Part shown: positions 44,152 through 53,200 of the stretch, in pieces | How positions within the stretch are numbered: the stretch's first letter is position 1 | Layout of the letters: every line of letters starts with the position of its first letter | DNA from: Hyphomonadaceae bacterium | GTDB taxonomy: Bacteria; Pseudomonadota; Alphaproteobacteria; Caulobacterales; Hyphomonadaceae | Assembly: GCA_947474455.1 (NCBI GenBank) | Contig: CANJIL010000001.1 | Coordinates: forward strand, 62,001 to 126,000 | Direction: 5' to 3' | Length of the DNA stretch: 64,000 bases | The notes under the pieces: generated by a model | The model's input: the letters and a program-made list of their open reading frames with translations, nothing else | What the model was told of the DNA's origin: nothing | Databases searched by the model: none | Program-made: the position numbers and the translations under genes

Positions 44152-46032
44152 CTAGATCGACGCCCCCAGCGCAGCGTCCAGCAACAGGAACGCCGAAAGC
44201 CGCGGCGCTGCGTCCTCGCGGGCTCGTTCCGCCATCGAGAGCACGCGCAACGCATCAGGCTCCTCGGAGGTGAGGAAGCTGCGCGCGGCCTGCTGAAGAT
44301 CGTGATCGCCCTCAAGCATGCGCGATACGCGCTGAAGCTCACTGGGGACGACGTCGCGGATCGCGCGGCGGCGGTGGCGTTCGCCGTGGTGGGCGGCTGT
44401 CGCGATGCGGCGAAGATCTGACGCCTTGACCACATGATTGAGACTAACGCCGCCGCGGTCGAGCCGGTCGATGATCTGCCCGGCGGACTGTTCGCGGACC
44501 TGTAGCGGAACTTCCTCGATGCCGGACAGGAGGCCGCGCCAGGAATGGCCGTTGCGCGTCGGCTCAGGCCCGAACAGGGGATCGGGCGAGGGAACGGCGC
44601 GCGGGCCGGCAATCGTACTGAGGACCAGCTCGTCGTCGTGCACGCCATCGCCACGCATCGGATCCCACATCGGATCGTCCATCGCGCTTGAAGCGGTAGG
44701 CTTGGCGGCGGCGAACAACGGGGTCACCGGTTCGGGCTTTGGCTTTTTGAGCACGAGGTCGTCGAGCGGCCGGGACTTCTCGGGTTCGAGGATGAGATCG
44801 TCGACCGAGGACTGCTCGGCATGATCATCCTTCATCCTGTGGATCAGGAGTGAGGCTTTCTCGATGCGTACGCGAGCGCGCTCTAGCCCCTCCTCGGCGG
44901 CGCTGGTCGCACGCGAGGCGGTGCGGAAAAGGGTTTCCGAAAGTTGGTTGACGCGCTTTTCGGTTTCGTCGGCCTGCTGGCGGGCAGCCATGGTGGCCGA
45001 TCGGGTCGTGGCTTCGGCCTGCTGGGCGACATCTTTCAGCGCGGTCATGGCCGTGCGGGCCTCTTCAGTCGCCTGGGCCGACCGGGCGTTGATCGTCTCG
45101 GTCGCCTTCATGGCGGAGCCGAGCGCATCTGAAACCGTGTCGCGCAGGCTCTCTGCGGTCGACTTGGCGGCTGCCTGGGCCAGTTCCCCGGCCTTGGTGG
45201 CGGCTTCGACCATGCGGGTCGACTGCACAAGTTGCTCGTCGAGGCGCATCAGGGCCCCGCCGAGGTTCTGAGCGCGCTTCCGGCTTTCCGCGCCCATCGT
45301 GTCGAGTTGGTTGATGCGCGAAGCGAGGTGGCCTGCGGTATCCTGCAGGTCGCGCAGGCGCTGGTCGAGCGTCACGTCTGACTGGCGGACCTGATCCTGC
45401 GCGGCGCGGGCGGCCTCCGAGATCATCTGCGCATGGCGCGGGATCGACTTGGCGAGCGTCTCGGACTGATTGCGCAGGCTTTCGGCCAACTGCGTCAGGC
45501 TCTGCCGTTCCGAGCCCATCTTGTGGACGAGCACCTCTGAATCAGCGCGGACGATCTCGGCAGCCTTAAGGGCGGCGGTAACGCTGCTCTCGATGTCGTG
45601 CTTGAGCGTATCCAGCCGCGTGCGCGTGTCAGACAGCGCGTTGTTCAGCATCTGGGTCTCGCGGGCGACCGCTTCGGCAAGGCTGGTGACCTCGCCCCGG
45701 GATTGTTCGGCAGGGGCCAGGAGCAGCTTCGCGGACGTCAGCACCACCTGGTTGGCTTCTGAGGAGCGTGCGCCTTCGCGCGCCATGACGCCTGCGCAGA
45801 CCAGCGTCAGGCCGGTGGCGAACAGCACGGCGAACCCGCCAGCGAGCACCAGAGGCGGCTGGGCGAGAATGTTGTCAAAGCCGACTGTGGCAATCAGCCA
45901 GGCTGCGATGCCGCCCCAGAGTATGAGCGCTAGGGCTGCGCCGGCCCAGGGCATCCATGCCCCAGCGGTGCGCGCCGCTTCAAGCTGAGCGTTGACCCGG
46001 TTGGGCGTCCTACGATCCAGGTATTTTGTCAT
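44152..46032 (-). CDS. Two-TM coiled-coil protein resembling polar scaffold proteins
   Basis: A 626-aa protein with two N-terminal membrane helices (residues about 32-53 and 60-85), a long Ala-rich coiled coil (about 110-440, many heptad-like A/L positions), a Pro/Asp-rich linker, and a folded helical domain at the end (about 530-626, QIIDRLDRGGVSLNHVV, RRIATAAHHGERHRRR). The two-TM plus coiled-coil plan is that of TipN-like polarity factors of Caulobacterales, but I see no decisive sequence match. Earlier in-frame ATG (46185) gives a Pro/Arg-rich extension and is rejected. Confidence 0.82.
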   Translation of the reverse strand: MTKYLDRRTPNRVNAQLEAARTAGAWMPWAGAALALILWGGIAAWLIATVGFDNILAQPPLVLAGGFAVLFATGLTLVCAGVMAREGARSSEANQVVLTSAKLLLAPAEQSRGEVTSLAEAVARETQMLNNALSDTRTRLDTLKHDIESSVTAALKAAEIVRADSEVLVHKMGSERQSLTQLAESLRNQSETLAKSIPRHAQMISEAARAAQDQVRQSDVTLDQRLRDLQDTAGHLASRINQLDTMGAESRKRAQNLGGALMRLDEQLVQSTRMVEAATKAGELAQAAAKSTAESLRDTVSDALGSAMKATETINARSAQATEEARTAMTALKDVAQQAEATTRSATMAARQQADETEKRVNQLSETLFRTASRATSAAEEGLERARVRIEKASLLIHRMKDDHAEQSSVDDLILEPEKSRPLDDLVLKKPKPEPVTPLFAAAKPTASSAMDDPMWDPMRGDGVHDDELVLSTIAGPRAVPSPDPLFGPEPTRNGHSWRGLLSGIEEVPLQVREQSAGQIIDRLDRGGVSLNHVVKASDLRRIATAAHHGERHRRRAIRDVVPSELQRVSRMLEGDHDLQQAARSFLTSEEPDALRVLSMAERAREDAAPRLSAFLLLDAALGASI

Positions 46033-46305
46033 GTGTTCAGGTTGACCAGTCCAGAGTGGCGTAAACGCGCCAGCAAGCGGGCGTGGACGGGCGCCCAACG
46101 GAATTCTTCCGGGGCTCGCGGCTCTACCCGCCCACTCAGCCTCGACAGTGTGCAGATATGGCGCCGTGTTGAAAAGGGGCTGCAAACAGCGCGGCGCCCG
46201 GATTCTGCAGGAATTTTGTAAACGCTAGCAGGCGAAAGACGTCAGCTGTCGTGAAATGCGCCGCAGATTCTCAGTAAACGGGACGAGTCAGCACCGTAGC
46301 GCCGC

Positions 46306-46655: not shown

Positions 46656-46697
46656 CCCGGGTCTTCGACCCTGCATTGGACCCAGGGGAGGGCCGCC

Positions 46698-47075
46698 ATG
46701 TCCGCAGTCATTGATCTCGACCAGCTTGAAACAATGACGGGGGGCGATGCGGAGCTCGCGGTCGAGGCGCTGGGGATTTTCCGCCAGTCGGCCGACCTCT
46801 GGGGGCGCATGCTGGATCCGCATGCCGAAGCGGTGCAGTGGGCCGATGCCGCGCACGGCATCAAGGGCGCCGCGCGCTCGGTCGGGCTGATGGCGCTTGG
46901 TGATGTGTGCGAGGAAGCCGAACGACTGGGCCGTTCCAGAGCGCCAACGGCGGCGCAGGCCGGCGTTGCGATCTCCGCGGTGAAAGACAGGCTCGGCGAA
47001 GCGATCGAGGCAATCGCCCAAATCGAACACCAGCTTATGATGAAGCGAACGTTCGCAGGCGTGCGGCTGGGGTAG
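46698..47075 (+). CDS. Stand-alone HPt phosphotransfer protein
   Basis: A 125-aa four-helix-bundle phosphotransfer protein. The acceptor His sits in ADAAHGIKGAARSVGLMAL (near residue 56), the classic HPt helix. It relays phosphate between hybrid kinases, such as the one at 3953, and response regulators. A GGGGAGGG ribosome site decides the start; upstream in-frame sequence is not protein-like. Possible CtrA control, see the box upstream. Confidence 0.88.
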   Translation: MSAVIDLDQLETMTGGDAELAVEALGIFRQSADLWGRMLDPHAEAVQWADAAHGIKGAARSVGLMALGDVCEEAERLGRSRAPTAAQAGVAISAVKDRLGEAIEAIAQIEHQLMMKRTFAGVRLG

Positions 47076-47178
47076 ACAGGCGCTCAGGCCGCGACGGCGT
47101 CAGCGAGAAAATCGTCGAGCGCAACCCAGTTTTCTTCCGGCTGGCGCGTGGACAGCTAACACGCTGCGCTTTTCGTGA

Positions 47179-47412
47179 CTATCCCCGACCACGGCGGAAG
47201 CGGCGCCAGCGGATGGCGACTTTCGTGAAGAAGTCTTGCTGGTTCTCGATGTTGTCGAAAACTTCTTGGTCCGATTTTCCAATGGCGACCAGAGTTGCGA
47301 TTTCGTCGGGAGCGGCGCGATAGCGGAGCTTGCGGAAGCCGGCGGCCAGGACAGCTGCGCGCGTCCGGGCGATGGAGTCATCTAGATCTCGCGGGTCCAG
47401 CATCTCACTCAT
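47179..47412 (-). CDS. Small soluble protein, last gene of the motor-like operon
   Basis: A 77-aa protein, MSEMLDPRDLDDSIARTRAA at the start, with a basic C-terminus (KVAIRWRRFRRGRG). No signal or helix. Its ATG overlaps the stop of the MotB-like gene (ATGA), so it is coupled to the operon. No family recognised. The last residues could bind membrane or nucleic acid; that is a guess. Confidence 0.75.
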   Translation of the reverse strand: MSEMLDPRDLDDSIARTRAAVLAAGFRKLRYRAAPDEIATLVAIGKSDQEVFDNIENQQDFFTKVAIRWRRFRRGRG

Positions 47413-48323
47413 GGCGTGGCCGTGGGAGAAGCGCCCGAGACCAGCGGGTAAAAGCGATCCTCCACCGCGCGGCGGGCCTGGATATAGCCGGACTTGTTGC
47501 CGTCCGACGTGCCATCGATGATTCGCGCGTAAAAGCGGCAGCCCTGCGCCACGCTCCAGGCATGCAGGCCCATTGTCTGCGTAAGGAAAGTCTGGCGCGA
47601 GATCGTCTGGCCAAGCGGCGGCTCCGCGCCATTGGCGCGCAGGCCGGCCATGTCCAGTCCCGTGCGGTCGTCCGTGATGCTGAGGCTCAGTCCGTCATCC
47701 AGCAGCACCGCATCGTATGCGTAGACGATCTTTCCGTCGCGTTGCCAGCATGGCGGATAGGAGAGGCCATTGCCAGCGGTCGCCAGTTTCCGTTCGTAAT
47801 AGTCGAGCTGACCGGCCATGCGATCGAACGCCGCCAAAGCCTCCGCAAGCGTCTTCGGTTTGTCCGCGCCGTCCGCAGGCGGAGCTGTCGTCTTGCGTGA
47901 AAGATGCCAGTCGAGAACCTGCAACGGCGTCTCGTTGCTCCTCTGGACATCGAAAGCATCGGCGATCTGCTTGGCTTCCCCCGCCGTGGGCACGAGACGT
48001 GCGTAAGTGGCGAGGTCTTTCTGCAGCGCGGCGTTGCGCGCCATCTCGTCTGTCAGGCGGTTGAGCTTGCGTGAGAGTTCATCGGGGCTGGTCGCGATGC
48101 CGGACAGGGTGAGCTGCCGCGCCAACCGGTCCACGCCTGAATCAATGCGCAGGGTCAGGCCGGCGATCTGATCCTCTTGTTCCTTCATCTTCTTGTCGCG
48201 CGCCTGTCCAAGGGCCGCGTAGACCAGCAGCAACAGGAAAAGGACGAGCAGGAGCGTTTCGGCCAGCGTGAGACCGAGAACAAGACCGCGCCGATAGCCA
48301 ACCGGATCGTTCGACCCGCGCAT
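47409..48323 (-). CDS. MotB/ZorB-like single-TM protein of an unassigned motor module
   Basis: A 304-aa protein. One N-terminal helix (residues 13-37) contains an acidic residue, Glu22, in GLTLAETLLLVLF, at the place where MotB, ExbD and ZorB carry the ion-binding Asp. A coiled coil follows (about 45-130). The C-terminal domain has PPCWQRDGKIVYAYDAVL (190-207), QGCRFYARIID (260-270) and AVEDRFY (286-292): two conserved-looking cysteines, not an OmpA-type peptidoglycan binder. Start is the ATG sharing a base with the MotA-like stop (TGATG). I have seen this C-terminal pattern only in unnamed proteins; function is inferred. Confidence 0.75.
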   Translation of the reverse strand: MRGSNDPVGYRRGLVLGLTLAETLLLVLFLLLLVYAALGQARDKKMKEQEDQIAGLTLRIDSGVDRLARQLTLSGIATSPDELSRKLNRLTDEMARNAALQKDLATYARLVPTAGEAKQIADAFDVQRSNETPLQVLDWHLSRKTTAPPADGADKPKTLAEALAAFDRMAGQLDYYERKLATAGNGLSYPPCWQRDGKIVYAYDAVLLDDGLSLSITDDRTGLDMAGLRANGAEPPLGQTISRQTFLTQTMGLHAWSVAQGCRFYARIIDGTSDGNKSGYIQARRAVEDRFYPLVSGASPTATP

Positions 48324-49393
48324 CAATTGACCCGCCGGACGATGGTGTTCGCGAGGTCGCCGAGCGCAGTGTACACTTTCTGCACGGCTTCACGCGCGCG
48401 CTCCGCATCCGCCTCCATTGCCGCGCGGTGTTGCGCGAGAAAGAGCTTCTGCCCATCAAGCGCGGCTACAATGCTCTCCGTCGCCGCGCGCTGTTTCTCC
48501 AGCGTGCGGGCAAGGTCGTTGAGCACCTGATCGATCTTGCGAAGGCCCACTTCTGAACGTTCGGTGGCGGAAACTGTGGAGCTGACGGCGCTGGCCTGAT
48601 CACGGATTTCGCGCCCCGCTTCGGAAAGCCGCAAGCCTGCCGCTTCGAGCTGCGCCACGGTCGCCTTGAGCACGGTGTTGAGCGTCTCGGGCGAGACCTC
48701 GAGGCTCTTCATCCGTTCGGTGATTTCTCGCGCATCCTCGACATTGGCGCGCGTGTGCTCGATCGAGATGCGGAAGGTTTCCTGCGCGCCTACCAGCAAC
48801 GTGCGAAACGCCTCTGCGGCGGAGAGCAGGGATGAACGCATGTCCTGTGCGGCCTGCGCCAGGTCATTGCGGGCGCGACCCTCGACATCGTCGTTCTCCG
48901 AGCGGAACTGGATCAGGATCAGCCGCGCAATGATGCCGGTGCATGTGGAAACCAGCGCCACGCCGAAATTTCCCAGCAGCCCCGTAATCTCCGCTCCGCC
49001 TTCGATCTGGATAAGCGTCGCGATCAGGGATGCGAGCGTGTAGACAAGCCCAAGATAATAGCAGTTGTCGCCCAGCCGGTCGGCCCGCATCACACGCTGG
49101 CGGATCGACAGCCACGACACCGCGAAATAACCGACGATGAAGGCGAAGGCCGCGACGGCGCCTGCGGTGGGCGAAAGCCAGCCGCCGGTCTTGCCCAGCA
49201 GGATGAAGGCGCTGCCCGCCAGCAGGGCGATGAAATAGGTTATCTTCTCTGCCGTTTCGGAGACGCGCCGCTTGGCGACATCGGGCTGGCGGCCGGGCGC
49301 CGCCGGAATGCGGCTCGAGACCGGCTCGTCATTCGTGATCAGCGTCGCCGTCAGCGGCTCGGGGATAATGGAGGGGCGGATATCGTCAGCCAT
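48323..49393 (-). CDS. MotA/ExbB/ZorA-like membrane protein with coiled-coil tail
   Basis: A 356-aa protein. Four helices (residues about 50-67, 74-96, 110-130, 136-163). The last two resemble the MotA/TolQ/ExbB core: NCYYLGLVYTLASLIATL and GLLGNFGVALVSTCTGIIARL, the second matching the polar A-L-x-T-T-x-x-G-L-x-x-A helix that lines the ion path. A cytoplasmic coiled coil of nearly 190 residues follows, as in ZorA tails. Start is the ATG overlapping the VWA gene stop (TGATG). No flagellar, Tol or TonB genes are near. Confidence 0.78.
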   Translation of the reverse strand: MADDIRPSIIPEPLTATLITNDEPVSSRIPAAPGRQPDVAKRRVSETAEKITYFIALLAGSAFILLGKTGGWLSPTAGAVAAFAFIVGYFAVSWLSIRQRVMRADRLGDNCYYLGLVYTLASLIATLIQIEGGAEITGLLGNFGVALVSTCTGIIARLILIQFRSENDDVEGRARNDLAQAAQDMRSSLLSAAEAFRTLLVGAQETFRISIEHTRANVEDAREITERMKSLEVSPETLNTVLKATVAQLEAAGLRLSEAGREIRDQASAVSSTVSATERSEVGLRKIDQVLNDLARTLEKQRAATESIVAALDGQKLFLAQHRAAMEADAERAREAVQKVYTALGDLANTIVRRVN

Positions 49394-50223
49394 CAGATCG
49401 CTTCCGACTCCATGAGCGTGCCATTCATCTCGTCGAAGTATTGCGACCACCAGTTGATGTGAGCATTGCTCTGCACATCGCGATAGTTCGCGCGCGTCAC
49501 ATAAACGACGTCGATGCGCGCGTGATGCAGATCCACCAGCGACGATGACCAGCCCGCCGATTTCTTGAAGTCCGCGAAGTCACCCGTTCCTTTGCTTTGC
49601 CTCAGCATCGGCGAGTTCTGCACCATGTCGGAGACCAGCGTTATCCGCACAGGAACGTCGCTGCCAAGCCGGGAGAAGGATTTCGTCGCCGCCGAGCGCA
49701 GCGATTCAATGATGGGCGAAGTCTTTGCCGGCTCCACCTGTAGAACCCTCGCCATCGTCTCCTCGACTGCCGCAAGATAGCCCTGCTCATAATCGCGCTG
49801 CTTCCTCTCGACGTCGGAAATCGCCGCGTCCATCGCCGTGGGGGCGCCGGGATTGCACTTGCTGAAGATCGGCTCGCCCAGGCTGCCATTGCCGCGGTCA
49901 GCCAGATAGATGTCGACGCGCGCATTCTCCGGCGCCGCGCGAATCGCGCTGATCACCTTCGCTCGCGCCGTTTCCGCCTGCACGCCATCGAGCGGATCGG
50001 ATGCATCGAGCAGGATCAGGTGAACTTCCGCCGGCCCCGCGCGGTTGCACCAGGACACAGGATCCGTCGCCTCGGCTTTCTGGTTCACCAGAAAGAACGT
50101 AACGCCCAGCCCGGCCAGCAAAGCGCCGCCGCCCGCGACCTTGCCGATCGCGCCCCAGGGCGCTTCGCCGCCCGCGCGCCTGCGCGAACCTCTGGAGGAA
50201 GGCCGGCGGTTACGGCGCGACAT
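49393..50223 (-). CDS. Membrane-anchored VWA-like protein
   Basis: A 276-aa protein. A basic start (MSRRNRRPSSRGSRRR) and one helix (residues 23-46) orient the rest to the periplasm. The domain resembles a von Willebrand A fold: VHLILLDASDPLDG (a degenerate MIDAS-like D-x-S-D), a central KCNPGAPTAMDAAI turn, and LVSDMVQNSPML near residues 196-207. A complete MIDAS Thr is not seen, so metal binding is uncertain. It overlaps both neighbours. Similar proteins occur in many proteobacteria without known role. Confidence 0.72.
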   Translation of the reverse strand: MSRRNRRPSSRGSRRRAGGEAPWGAIGKVAGGGALLAGLGVTFFLVNQKAEATDPVSWCNRAGPAEVHLILLDASDPLDGVQAETARAKVISAIRAAPENARVDIYLADRGNGSLGEPIFSKCNPGAPTAMDAAISDVERKQRDYEQGYLAAVEETMARVLQVEPAKTSPIIESLRSAATKSFSRLGSDVPVRITLVSDMVQNSPMLRQSKGTGDFADFKKSAGWSSSLVDLHHARIDVVYVTRANYRDVQSNAHINWWSQYFDEMNGTLMESEAI

Positions 50224-51658
50224 CACGCACCTGTTCGGCCTTGGCGAGCTGCGCCCGTGTGGCGGCTATGGCCGCCTCGATCTTGTCCTTCTGCTCCTTC
50301 GCGACTGTCTGCGCGCGTTCGGCGGCCGCACGCGCCTCCTTGATGTCTACCGACGTCGCAAACAGGCTCGCCAGCGCCGGATCAAGAATAATCGCGTTGG
50401 CAAAGCCCGGGTTGGCCAGTTTCACCGGGTTGGCAAAGTGCGCTGGCGGCGGCGCAGAGCGCGCCCGCGTATTGGCGCCGCGATAGATCGACAGCATCGT
50501 GTTCGCCGCGCTCTCCAGCTCCGCCTCATAGTTGCGGGCCGCCGCCTCAAGCTGTTTTTTCGCATCCGTGTGGTTGTCGATCGCCTGCAGCGACGGTCCG
50601 ATATCGTAGAGAAACGCCCCGACCGCCTGAGAAGCCGCCTCCTGCTCCTCCAGCATCTCGCCGGTCACATCGTCGAGCAGGTCGAGATAGTCATCACGCT
50701 GGTCTTCGGATTCATTGTAGCGCTTGGTGTAATCTGGATAGCGATCGCCGAACTCATATCCCTTCCGCGCCGCATAGATGCCCGCGATCACGCCCACCGC
50801 GATCATGATGAGCGATAGCTCGTCCAGATGACTGAAGCCCCAGGCCGCAGGCGATGGGGCAGGCGACGTGCGCCAGGCCTCATAAAACCAGCCAACGGCA
50901 GCCCACAGCGGCGAGACGCCTTCGGCAACCGAATTGCGCGCGACGCGATAGAACGCGACGACCATATGCACCACCGGCAATCCGACCAGCAGCACAAGCA
51001 CGGCGGCAAAGCCCAGCAGCTTGTTGGCGATGAACGCGCTGTTGACTCGCTTCACCAGCGCAAAGCCGATCACCGTGCACACCACGATATTTGCCGCCGC
51101 GATCAGGAGCGCCTGGAAGAACGCGCCCAGCATGCCCAGCTGATTGCCTTCGGTGAAGAAGAACAGGTTGAGCGCACCCTCGACGATTGCAATCAGGAAC
51201 AGGTCGGCAAAGAACACGAAGGCCGAACGCGGCGCTTTGGCCGGCCGCTTCAGCTTCCGCTCGTCCCGCCAGCCCTGAAAGTCCGCCTGGCCTTCCCTCA
51301 GCCTCTGGAATTTCTGTTCGAGGTCGCGCAGGTCGACCACCGCCCGTTGCTCGATAGCCGAAATCTTCGGCGCGACTCGATTCTCGATCTCGGTCGTCGC
51401 CAGCCGCGAGCGAGCCCGCGCCAGCAATTCGTTGAGCCCGCGCAGCCGGTCGATGATGTCGTTGCGCAGCTGCGTGCGCTCGGCAACAATGCCGCTGACG
51501 ATCTCGGATTCGATGTCGTCCAGCGAAGCCGCATTGGCTGGCGGATGATTGGCGCCTCCTCGCTCGGCGCCCCGCGTCTCCAGCGACAGACGTTTTGCAT
51601 GCCGCTCGATATCGAGCGGCCTGAACACAGTCAGATCGGGAAGGCTGTTGCCGTCCAC
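50210..51658 (-). CDS. Four-TM coiled-coil protein, first gene of the motor-like operon
   Basis: About 482 aa, unknown family. Soluble, highly charged coiled coil (about 50-135), four helices (about 145-168, 175-202, 213-238, 279-298), then a cytoplasmic helical part with FGDRYPDYTKRYNESEDQRDDYLD and a long terminal coiled coil (about 355-480). Start uncertain: GTG 51658 follows GGGGTTAC; TTG 51670 is also in frame. Overlaps the VWA gene by 14 bases. Likely the base or stator platform of the module; this is inference from gene order. Confidence 0.72.
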   Translation of the reverse strand: MDGNSLPDLTVFRPLDIERHAKRLSLETRGAERGGANHPPANAASLDDIESEIVSGIVAERTQLRNDIIDRLRGLNELLARARSRLATTEIENRVAPKISAIEQRAVVDLRDLEQKFQRLREGQADFQGWRDERKLKRPAKAPRSAFVFFADLFLIAIVEGALNLFFFTEGNQLGMLGAFFQALLIAAANIVVCTVIGFALVKRVNSAFIANKLLGFAAVLVLLVGLPVVHMVVAFYRVARNSVAEGVSPLWAAVGWFYEAWRTSPAPSPAAWGFSHLDELSLIMIAVGVIAGIYAARKGYEFGDRYPDYTKRYNESEDQRDDYLDLLDDVTGEMLEEQEAASQAVGAFLYDIGPSLQAIDNHTDAKKQLEAAARNYEAELESAANTMLSIYRGANTRARSAPPPAHFANPVKLANPGFANAIILDPALASLFATSVDIKEARAAAERAQTVAKEQKDKIEAAIAATRAQLAKAEQVRDVAP

Positions 51659-51805
51659 CCGTAACCCCAATGCGCCAGCGCGGGAACCGAGCGCATTTTA
51701 CAGCGCCGACAAGCGTTTCGCGCGCAGATTAAGCAGTAGCGAAGGGCAAGATTACGGGGGCCGCGCGGAACCTTCGCCACATACCGGACACAATCCGTGT
51801 CGGGT

Positions 51806-53200
51806 TCAGAATGTCCAGGTAATCTCGGTAAAGCCGAACAGCGTGTCGCCTTCGCCCGTAGCGTTGGGCGCCGATTTGAGAAAGTCGCCGCGAATGATCG
51901 CCGCCCCGCCGACCCCGAGGCGGAGCGAATCGGGGATCAGCCAGCGGCGGTAACGCACTTCGACCTGAGTTCCCACATTGTCGCCGGATGCGCCGGTGGC
52001 GTCGCGCACCCCAGAATTGGCGAAGCTGTTGGTCGCTGATTCCAGCTGGAGGCGTCGCACGGAGACGTTGGCGTCAGAAGCCCTGTCGGGTTTCACTTCA
52101 AGGCGAATGCCCGGTCCGATCAAGTTTGTGCGCGCAATAGCGCCGTAGATGCTGGTCGGGCCAAACTCAAAAGCGCGGTCGCCAAACAGCGAGTCGAAGC
52201 GTTCGCTGGACAGATCGGAGGGCGAACGGTCGCCTGACGCCCGATCGTATTGCAGGGCGAGGCGCGGCGACCATGGCCCATCGAATGTGTAGCCGACTTG
52301 GACGTGCATTGTTTCGGCGTCATGGTTGAGGTCGGTTACATCGGCGCCGCCTGTCGTCGCGCGGATCGAGCCTGTCTGGCCGGCGTATTCGAGGTCGAAG
52401 TCGAAGTCTGCCTTCGCGGGCGCGCGGCGCAGGCGGACGCCAACCGTGGACAGGTCACGATTGCGCGTGGGATTGTTGGAGGCGTCGCCCTCATCAAGAT
52501 CGAACAGGTAGATTTGGCCCGCCAGCGAGAAGGGCAGCGGCGCCTCGATAGTCAGGCCGCCGAAACGCGTATTTTCCAGCGTCCTGTTCAGCGCGACCTC
52601 ATTGTCGAGCGCTGAGGGAGCGTCCGAGGGGAGGCGGCTTACGATCGCTGTATAGAATGCCGTGACTTTTACGTCGGCGTCGTTCCTCCAGACAGCGTGG
52701 ACGCCGTCGAACGCCTGCAGCAGGCTGCGATAGTTGGAGCGTGCAACCAGTCGGCGCGAGCCAACATCCATCGTGAACCGCCCAAGTGTCAGATCGAGGC
52801 TGGCCCCCTTGATCAGGAAGTTCTTCGGGCGCCAGGCGAGATAGAGCTGGGCAGGCTCAAGCACATCAATTTCGCCGGGCGCTCCACCGCCGGCATTGCC
52901 AGACAGAAGACGCGAATCCAGCAACTCCCCACCAATCACGATCGCACCGGTGTTGATCTCCACCTTCAGTAGCGACTGGACGCCTAAGAGTTCGTCCCCG
53001 CCGCTTCGTCCCGCTGCGAACGTGTTCGACAGGGTCTCATAGCGCGGGCGCACTGATCCCAAAATTTCAAGCCAGTCGGGCGCGCCGACGGCCTTGCTCA
53101 ACCGCCACGGCTCCTTCGGGGCCTCCTGCGCAGAGCCCGGCGGGACGGTCGCCAGGGCGGCCAGCGCAAAACAGGCAACAAGGAAGGGTTGTCGGGACAT
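51806..53200 (-). CDS. Outer-membrane porin, Alginate_exp family
   Basis: A 464-aa beta-barrel protein with a signal peptide (cleavage after PPGSAQ, about residue 25). It has an N-terminal SVRPRYETLSN strand, LYLAWRPKNFLIKGASLDLTLGR, and a C-terminal FGFTEITWTF ending in Phe. It matches the alginate-export/AlgE-like pattern used by many alphaproteobacterial porins that do not export alginate. No alginate genes are here. It is divergent from the Rrf2 regulator and the sulfate importer, so it may serve sulfur uptake. Confidence 0.87.
   Translation of the reverse strand: MSRQPFLVACFALAALATVPPGSAQEAPKEPWRLSKAVGAPDWLEILGSVRPRYETLSNTFAAGRSGGDELLGVQSLLKVEINTGAIVIGGELLDSRLLSGNAGGGAPGEIDVLEPAQLYLAWRPKNFLIKGASLDLTLGRFTMDVGSRRLVARSNYRSLLQAFDGVHAVWRNDADVKVTAFYTAIVSRLPSDAPSALDNEVALNRTLENTRFGGLTIEAPLPFSLAGQIYLFDLDEGDASNNPTRNRDLSTVGVRLRRAPAKADFDFDLEYAGQTGSIRATTGGADVTDLNHDAETMHVQVGYTFDGPWSPRLALQYDRASGDRSPSDLSSERFDSLFGDRAFEFGPTSIYGAIARTNLIGPGIRLEVKPDRASDANVSVRRLQLESATNSFANSGVRDATGASGDNVGTQVEVRYRRWLIPDSLRLGVGGAAIIRGDFLKSAPNATGEGDTLFGFTEITWTF

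Follow-up and report, generated by a model that had tools for sequence, protein, structure and literature searches.

A conserved four-gene operon with a predicted ZorAB-like motor and recurrent nuclease partners in alphaproteobacteria

Introduction

What does a compact set of overlapping genes resembling an ion-driven motor do in the envelope of an alphaproteobacterium? The question is raised by a five-gene locus at positions 47179-51658, minus strand, of a 64,000-nucleotide stretch from a Hyphomonadaceae bacterium (assembly GCA_947474455.1, contig CANJIL010000001.1, positions 62,001 to 126,000). We refer to this stretch as the window. A sequence-only reading had described the locus as an ion-driven machine of the MotA/MotB type, accompanied by a VWA-like protein and a coiled-coil membrane protein, lacking nuclease effectors and matching no described system. 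Herein, we report that four of the five genes form a conserved, horizontally spread and, apparently, so far undescribed cluster, and that a nuclease is linked to it in most loci. The gene set, its order, the folds and homologies, the nuclease linkage and the mobility described below are based on sequence. We propose, as an evenly balanced judgement, that the genes in the window encode the ZorAB-like motor of a candidate defence machine against phage or plasmid DNA on its way through the envelope. Among the known bacterial immune systems that act by DNA cleavage, most do so in the cytoplasm, and the coupling of ion flow to a nuclease by ZorAB is the subject of ongoing work.

Results

The five minus-strand open reading frames claimed by the sequence-only reading are present in the window. 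The defining core gene, g1 (50210-51658), starts with GTG and encodes a 482-aa protein with four transmembrane (TM) helices and predicted cytoplasmic helical regions at both the N- and the C-terminus. It is followed by g2 (49393-50226; 277 aa), which has an Arg-rich N-terminus, one TM helix and then a VWA domain predicted to lie on the periplasmic side (residues ~63-277). The third gene, g3 (48323-49393; 356 aa), encodes a polytopic MotA/ExbB/ZorA-like protein with a cytoplasmic coiled-coil tail. The product of g4 (47409-48323; 304 aa) is MotB/ZorB-like and comprises a single TM helix bearing Glu22, a periplasmic coiled region and a C-terminal domain that we call PPCW after one of its motifs. 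Finally, g5 (47179-47412) overlaps g4 by 4 bp and encodes a basic 77-aa protein. Neighbouring genes overlap by 1-4 bp, and g1 and g2 by 14 or 17 bp depending on the start codon. Hydropathy gave four TM helices for g1 and one each for g2 and g4; in g3, three helices were clear and a fourth, conserved one was weaker, and g5 had no TM helix. The differences between the window and a genome of the same genus (L009/G003) fell mainly at silent sites in all five genes, with ratios of nonsynonymous to synonymous substitution (dN/dS) of 0.08, 0.07, 0.05, 0.10 and 0.14 for g1 to g5. Because the differences are mostly silent (dN/dS 0.05-0.14), g1-g5 are judged to be real, functional genes under purifying selection.

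Homologous loci were collected by g3, g1 and g2, independently of SNase (staphylococcal nuclease). The genes g1-g2-g3-g4 were all present, and in the same order, in the 27 loci with sufficient context (27/27); the partial loci L036-L038, which were mostly cut by contig ends and of which L038 is a g3 fragment only, were left out. All 27 loci were from alphaproteobacteria or IMG/VR contigs. The g3 profile matched 12 of 385 genomes of the class and 8 of 398 genomes of the phylum, all eight being members of the same class, as well as two IMG/VR contigs. Within the window's genus, the system was present in 3 of 15 genomes. Among 72,556 plasmids searched, 24 had a match to the g3 protein. When g1 of a different genome was the query, 24 plasmid records with identical genus counts were obtained, and all 20 records listed in the g3 search recurred. 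Since both searches find the same plasmids, the genes travel together. The homologues were not scattered, and these comparisons favour the view of a putative MotA/MotB-type envelope machine that is inherited as a unit with its VWA partner. The proposed unit of five genes held for g1-g4; g5 is outside the conserved core. Its product was 59% identical to the L009 counterpart and had no convincing relative elsewhere, and g5 was rejected as a conserved fifth subunit in favour of a clade-specific accessory because its relatives are confined to the window's clade.

The window proteins, searched singly against Pfam, NCBIfam, PADLOC and PHROGs, gave no match above the cut-off. A PADLOC search with the relatives returned no described system either, and no description of such a system was found in the open-access literature, in agreement with what had been said of the locus from its sequence.

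We compared the surroundings of the 27 loci and found a recurrent nuclease. In L030, L033, L034 and L044, g4 runs on behind its OmpA domain into a staphylococcal nuclease (SNase) domain. In L043 (6891-8696), g4 is fused to a GmrSD_C/HNH nuclease in the place of the SNase, which, from the sequence, is effector swapping at the same g4 position. A separate SNase gene adjoins the operon in 13 further loci, at a distance of 1-490 bp in 12 and of 1.2 kb in one. Thus, a nuclease is fused or adjacent in 18/27 loci (SNase in 17, 4 fused and 13 adjacent; HNH in one, fused). With 0-5 SNases per carrier genome, an SNase within 2 kb of the operon was observed in 7 of 14 genera against 0.06 expected by chance (P ~4e-14). 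The earlier statement that nuclease effectors are missing is accurate for the window's own clade but fails for the family. A hydrophobic segment was found within the first 60 residues of 12 of the 13 free SNases; in L039, it lies further in. Given this segment and the MotB-like topology of g4, the nuclease would face the periplasm, opposite to the arrangement in Zorya.

No SNase was found near the window operon, and the same genome has three elsewhere (C39, C10 and C35). Likewise, there was no nuclease near the operons of L009 or L035. An SNase remnant (L032:6684-6920) lies just upstream of a PPCW-type operon, with a full SNase ~11 kb upstream. Two different exported SNase genes occur near one operon in L047 (1689-2231 and 4848-5318). 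SNase reading frames of at least ~500 aa elsewhere in three genomes were considered as extra motor-nuclease fusions and dismissed, there being no g1-g4 matches in them.

The g3 protein was then characterised. The window g3 matched Pfam MotA_ExbB (PF01618) in the TM3-4 region at an E-value of 0.007 (16.6 bits, against a cut-off of 22.9), and 3 of 22 g3 homologues reached E < 0.01, the best at 0.0037, which is a distant similarity only. PADLOC ZorA profiles matched the window g3 at 0.002, L003 at 6e-7 and L044 at 7.5e-7 (ZorA1 for both homologues), with scores that derive partly from the coiled-coil tail. The hhalign comparison of g3 with ZorA extended across TM3-TM4 (P 0.0016, probability 16%) and placed the g3 motif GFLFTLxSL / FGIALxSTIxGIxLR opposite its counterpart in ZorA. 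A profile search of g3 against the PDB yielded coiled-coil look-alikes only (e.g. apolipoproteins) and the ZorA tail. The helical C-terminal tail comprises about 190 residues. The TM helices, the tail, the TM3/TM4 motifs and the ZorA-like profile matches are all consistent with the earlier assignment of g3 as a tailed MotA-like protein.

For g4, the matches to ZorB came from members that carry an OmpA-type domain. The g4 of L044 matched PADLOC ZorB2 at 4e-27, and hhalign of the OmpA-type g4 domain against ZorB gave an E-value of 4.5e-7. The Glu in the single TM helix, already pointed out for the window protein, is invariant as Glu22 in 22/22 aligned g4 proteins (TM motif GLTxAExxxL). The two Cys and the absence of an OmpA domain noted at the same time hold for the window's subtype and not as a family trait, most relatives carrying an OmpA-type domain. 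The g4 proteins of the window, L009, L031, L032, L035 and L037 have no OmpA domain; their C-terminal domain instead shows the motifs PPCW, CRF and FYP, and it spans about residues 188-295 in the window protein. We tried this domain as a derived OmpA domain and discarded the idea on hhalign grounds (E 0.44 against OmpA-type g4 domains, 0.068 against ZorB). Its AlphaFold2 model from two sequences (predicted local distance difference test score, pLDDT, 49) had no confident fold. The PPCW domain is not a marker of nuclease-free loci either, since L031 combines it with an adjoining exported SNase. Because of L031, the window-type and the other subtypes appear to share the nuclease theme at least partly.

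The PPCW-domain search also yielded operons that have no MotA-like gene. These three-gene operons (L120:9128-12545, L123:7332-10843 and, cut by the contig end and partly recovered, L122:58-2843) encode a PPCW protein with one TM helix, a four-TM protein and an exported VWA-like protein with the pattern GLDxSxSN...VTDG, in parallel to g4, g1 and g2. This suggests that the PPCW, four-TM and VWA protein types make up a separate module. Methylmalonyl-CoA-mutase-like genes adjoin the motor-less operon in two loci.

The VWA-like call for g2 was supported by modelling. An AlphaFold2 model from four sequences had a mean pLDDT of 71, with core blocks mostly at 75-92, and its best match was to 4fx5 (Z 13.0, root-mean-square deviation 2.7, 157 residues; Foldseek and VIA-align). 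The top rows of the structure search were almost all of the VWA, I-domain or Sec23 type; absences in these structure searches were not taken as absence of relatives. On the model, the periplasmic domain of g2 is a VWA (Rossmann-like) fold. The pattern D74-x-S/T76-D77, S170, S199-D200 is conserved; D74, S/T76, D77, S170 and D200, together with two Cys (60 and 124), are kept in 21/21 homologues, and the third position of the metal-ion-dependent adhesion site motif DxSxS is usually Pro rather than Ser in these 21. Given the conservation of the five residues, a metal site in g2 is likely. No detectable relative of g1 was found among the families of Pfam, NCBIfam, PADLOC and PHROG, nor any match to g1 in phage records, and a PDB profile search of g1, g2 and g4 gave nothing meaningful.

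The site of the window operon was compared among congeners. In six congeneric genomes, an alginate-export gene (51806-53200, minus strand, in the window) and an Hpt gene (46686-47075, plus strand) are convergent, 6-19 bp apart, and the site is empty. The window cassette (47076-51805; not assigned to a strand), bounded by the convergent stop codons of these two genes, fills exactly that gap. In G003, the operon is at the same site with ~1.3 kb of further sequence, and in G012, g1 is at the same place before the contig ends. The carriers within the genus form one group by flank identity. Because of the empty sites and this grouping, horizontal gain is preferred over repeated loss at the window site. 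The gain is not recent, since the GC content of the cassette equals that of its flanks. Elsewhere, the operon occurs on the 24 plasmids, 11 of which are predicted to be conjugative, and recombinase genes are near it in L032, L041, L043, L046 and L103.

Several neighbours were recorded. On a Sinorhizobium fredii plasmid (L104:11730-14413), the operon with its SNase has a DUF4041 (SNIPE family) gene as its neighbour, and a CHAT-domain gene flanks it on the opposite side. A gene convergent with g4 in Tistrella (L007:10159-10956; also L029) resembles a nucleotidyltransferase, AbiEii-like by eye. Directly after g4, there is an SH3-domain protein by annotation in L003 (10342-11100) and a DUF4236-like protein by eye in L039 (6452-7651). 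In the window, a 677-aa protein with a TM segment and a long coiled coil (44152-46185, minus strand) is conserved in L009 as well; its only matches, to the coiled coils of SMC and ZorA, were weak, and it is probably unrelated.

Discussion

Given the gene content, we infer the 5:2 motor, the sensing, the DNA cutting and the role in defence as follows. The g3 ring and the Glu-bearing g4 plug and anchor would form a ZorAB-like ion-driven motor of the inner membrane in a 5:2 assembly, and the dedicated partners, the four-TM coiled g1 and the periplasmic VWA protein g2, would hold or gate it. Tethered to peptidoglycan, g4 may sense the local envelope disturbance where phage or plasmid DNA enters, and ion flow via g3-g4 would then change the complex. 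A tethered nuclease, either fused behind the OmpA domain of g4 or a separate exported SNase, could cut the DNA ahead of or during its passage across the inner membrane. For the window copy, the motor part would apply; if a nuclease takes part at all, its gene must lie elsewhere, and otherwise something else would stand in for it.

Zorya, whose types I-III pair the ZorAB motor with ZorCD, ZorE or ZorFG, is the closest comparison. There, phage entry is sensed by ZorB, which binds peptidoglycan; the system depends on ion flow through ZorAB and recruits a nuclease in the cytoplasm (PMC11890865). Like Zorya, the family described here has a predicted MotA-like ring protein whose coiled cytoplasmic tail is long, a MotB-like protein whose TM helix bears an acidic residue and which carries an OmpA/peptidoglycan-type domain (OmpA being absent from the window subtype), a patchy, mobile distribution and, in common with types I and II, a partner nuclease (PMC11890865, PMC8565338). 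In contrast to Zorya, it has two extra core genes, the four-TM g1 and the periplasmic VWA g2; the nuclease is an SNase or HNH enzyme predicted on the periplasmic side and in part fused to the ZorB-like protein; and the acidic TM residue is Glu instead of Asp. No PADLOC match to ZorC, ZorD, ZorE, ZorF or ZorG was found for window g1, g2 or g5 or for the g1, g2 and small gene of relatives. Since ZorC-G are absent, the family is, on its gene content, not Zorya by the present definition. With MotAB, TolQR, ExbBD and other GIT motors, it shares a polytopic ring subunit with TM3/TM4 motifs, a single-TM acidic subunit and adjacent genes in the order A-B (PMC12505986), but it differs by the long C-terminal tail of g3 with little cytoplasmic TM2-TM3 loop, by the VWA and four-TM partners and by the nuclease fusions. 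SNIPE is a single membrane-bound DUF4041 nuclease that defends against phage and associates with the phage tape measure protein (PMC13190303). The idea of a membrane-sited nuclease attacking entering DNA is common to both, and one locus lies beside a DUF4041 gene, but here a motor operon and another nuclease family are involved.

Several observations weigh against a defence role of this kind. SNases are frequent among exported enzymes, and their role could be to scavenge nucleotides. The sequence similarity of g3 to ZorA and MotA is weak (below the Pfam cut-off; hhalign 16%), with ZorA scores owed partly to coiled-coil tails. The window cassette is old and has ordinary genes on both sides rather than a defence island around it, and its clade has neither an OmpA domain nor a local nuclease. 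Furthermore, no nuclease is within reach in 9/27 loci, the window included; therefore, the nuclease is not obligatory or acts in trans. It is somewhat unlikely that the PPCW subtype is a divergent branch with another, non-nuclease task, such as signalling via g5, so that the nuclease link of the family says little about the window copy. There is no nuclease near the window, L009 and L035 operons and a remnant only in L032, PPCW replaces OmpA, and motor-less operons of PPCW, four-TM and VWA proteins exist; nevertheless, L031 shows PPCW and an exported SNase to be compatible, and the core genes are full homologues.

An envelope machine for housekeeping or stress, similar to TolQR and ExbBD and serving stabilisation, polarity or surface sensing, is unlikely in our judgement. 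Its travel on plasmids would be incidental, and the nuclease would scavenge DNA or clear it from outside the cell. OmpA-type and VWA domains often take part in maintaining the envelope, MotAB relatives of the GIT type without an assigned function are widespread (PMC12505986), and a clade of three species has kept the window copy stably, with dN/dS < 0.1. Such a role, however, sits poorly with the patchy occurrence (12/385 genomes of the class, 3/15 in the genus), the mobile context and the nuclease-motor fusions. Quite unlikely is a plasmid-borne entry exclusion that controls or blocks conjugation or natural DNA uptake instead of phage. The 24 carrier plasmids, 11 of them predicted conjugative, fit this explanation, as would a periplasmic nuclease acting on single-stranded or transforming DNA, but the operon is also chromosomal and lies beside recombinases in IMG/VR contigs, and no linked transfer genes were seen in the neighbourhoods fetched. 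A chance grouping of unrelated genes, which the weak database matches of the single window proteins might suggest, is refuted by the strict co-occurrence in 27 loci and by purifying selection.

We return to the proposed defence machine. It is conceivable, though we hold it somewhat more doubtful than not, that the family represents a new class of immune machine, in which an ion-driven, peptidoglycan-tethered ZorAB-like motor with VWA and four-TM partners carries a periplasmic nuclease that destroys entering phage or plasmid DNA outside the cytoplasm, with a motor-less PPCW branch beside it that would point to envelope sensors as a larger family. If so, defence could begin in the periplasm, with a nuclease borne by the motor on the periplasmic face of the inner membrane, and the MotAB/ZorAB motor would be a reusable chassis whose effectors are interchangeable on either side of the membrane. 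The g4-OmpA-SNase proteins, which unite anchor and nuclease in one polypeptide, would allow the link between ion flow and nuclease to be probed directly with single-residue mutants.

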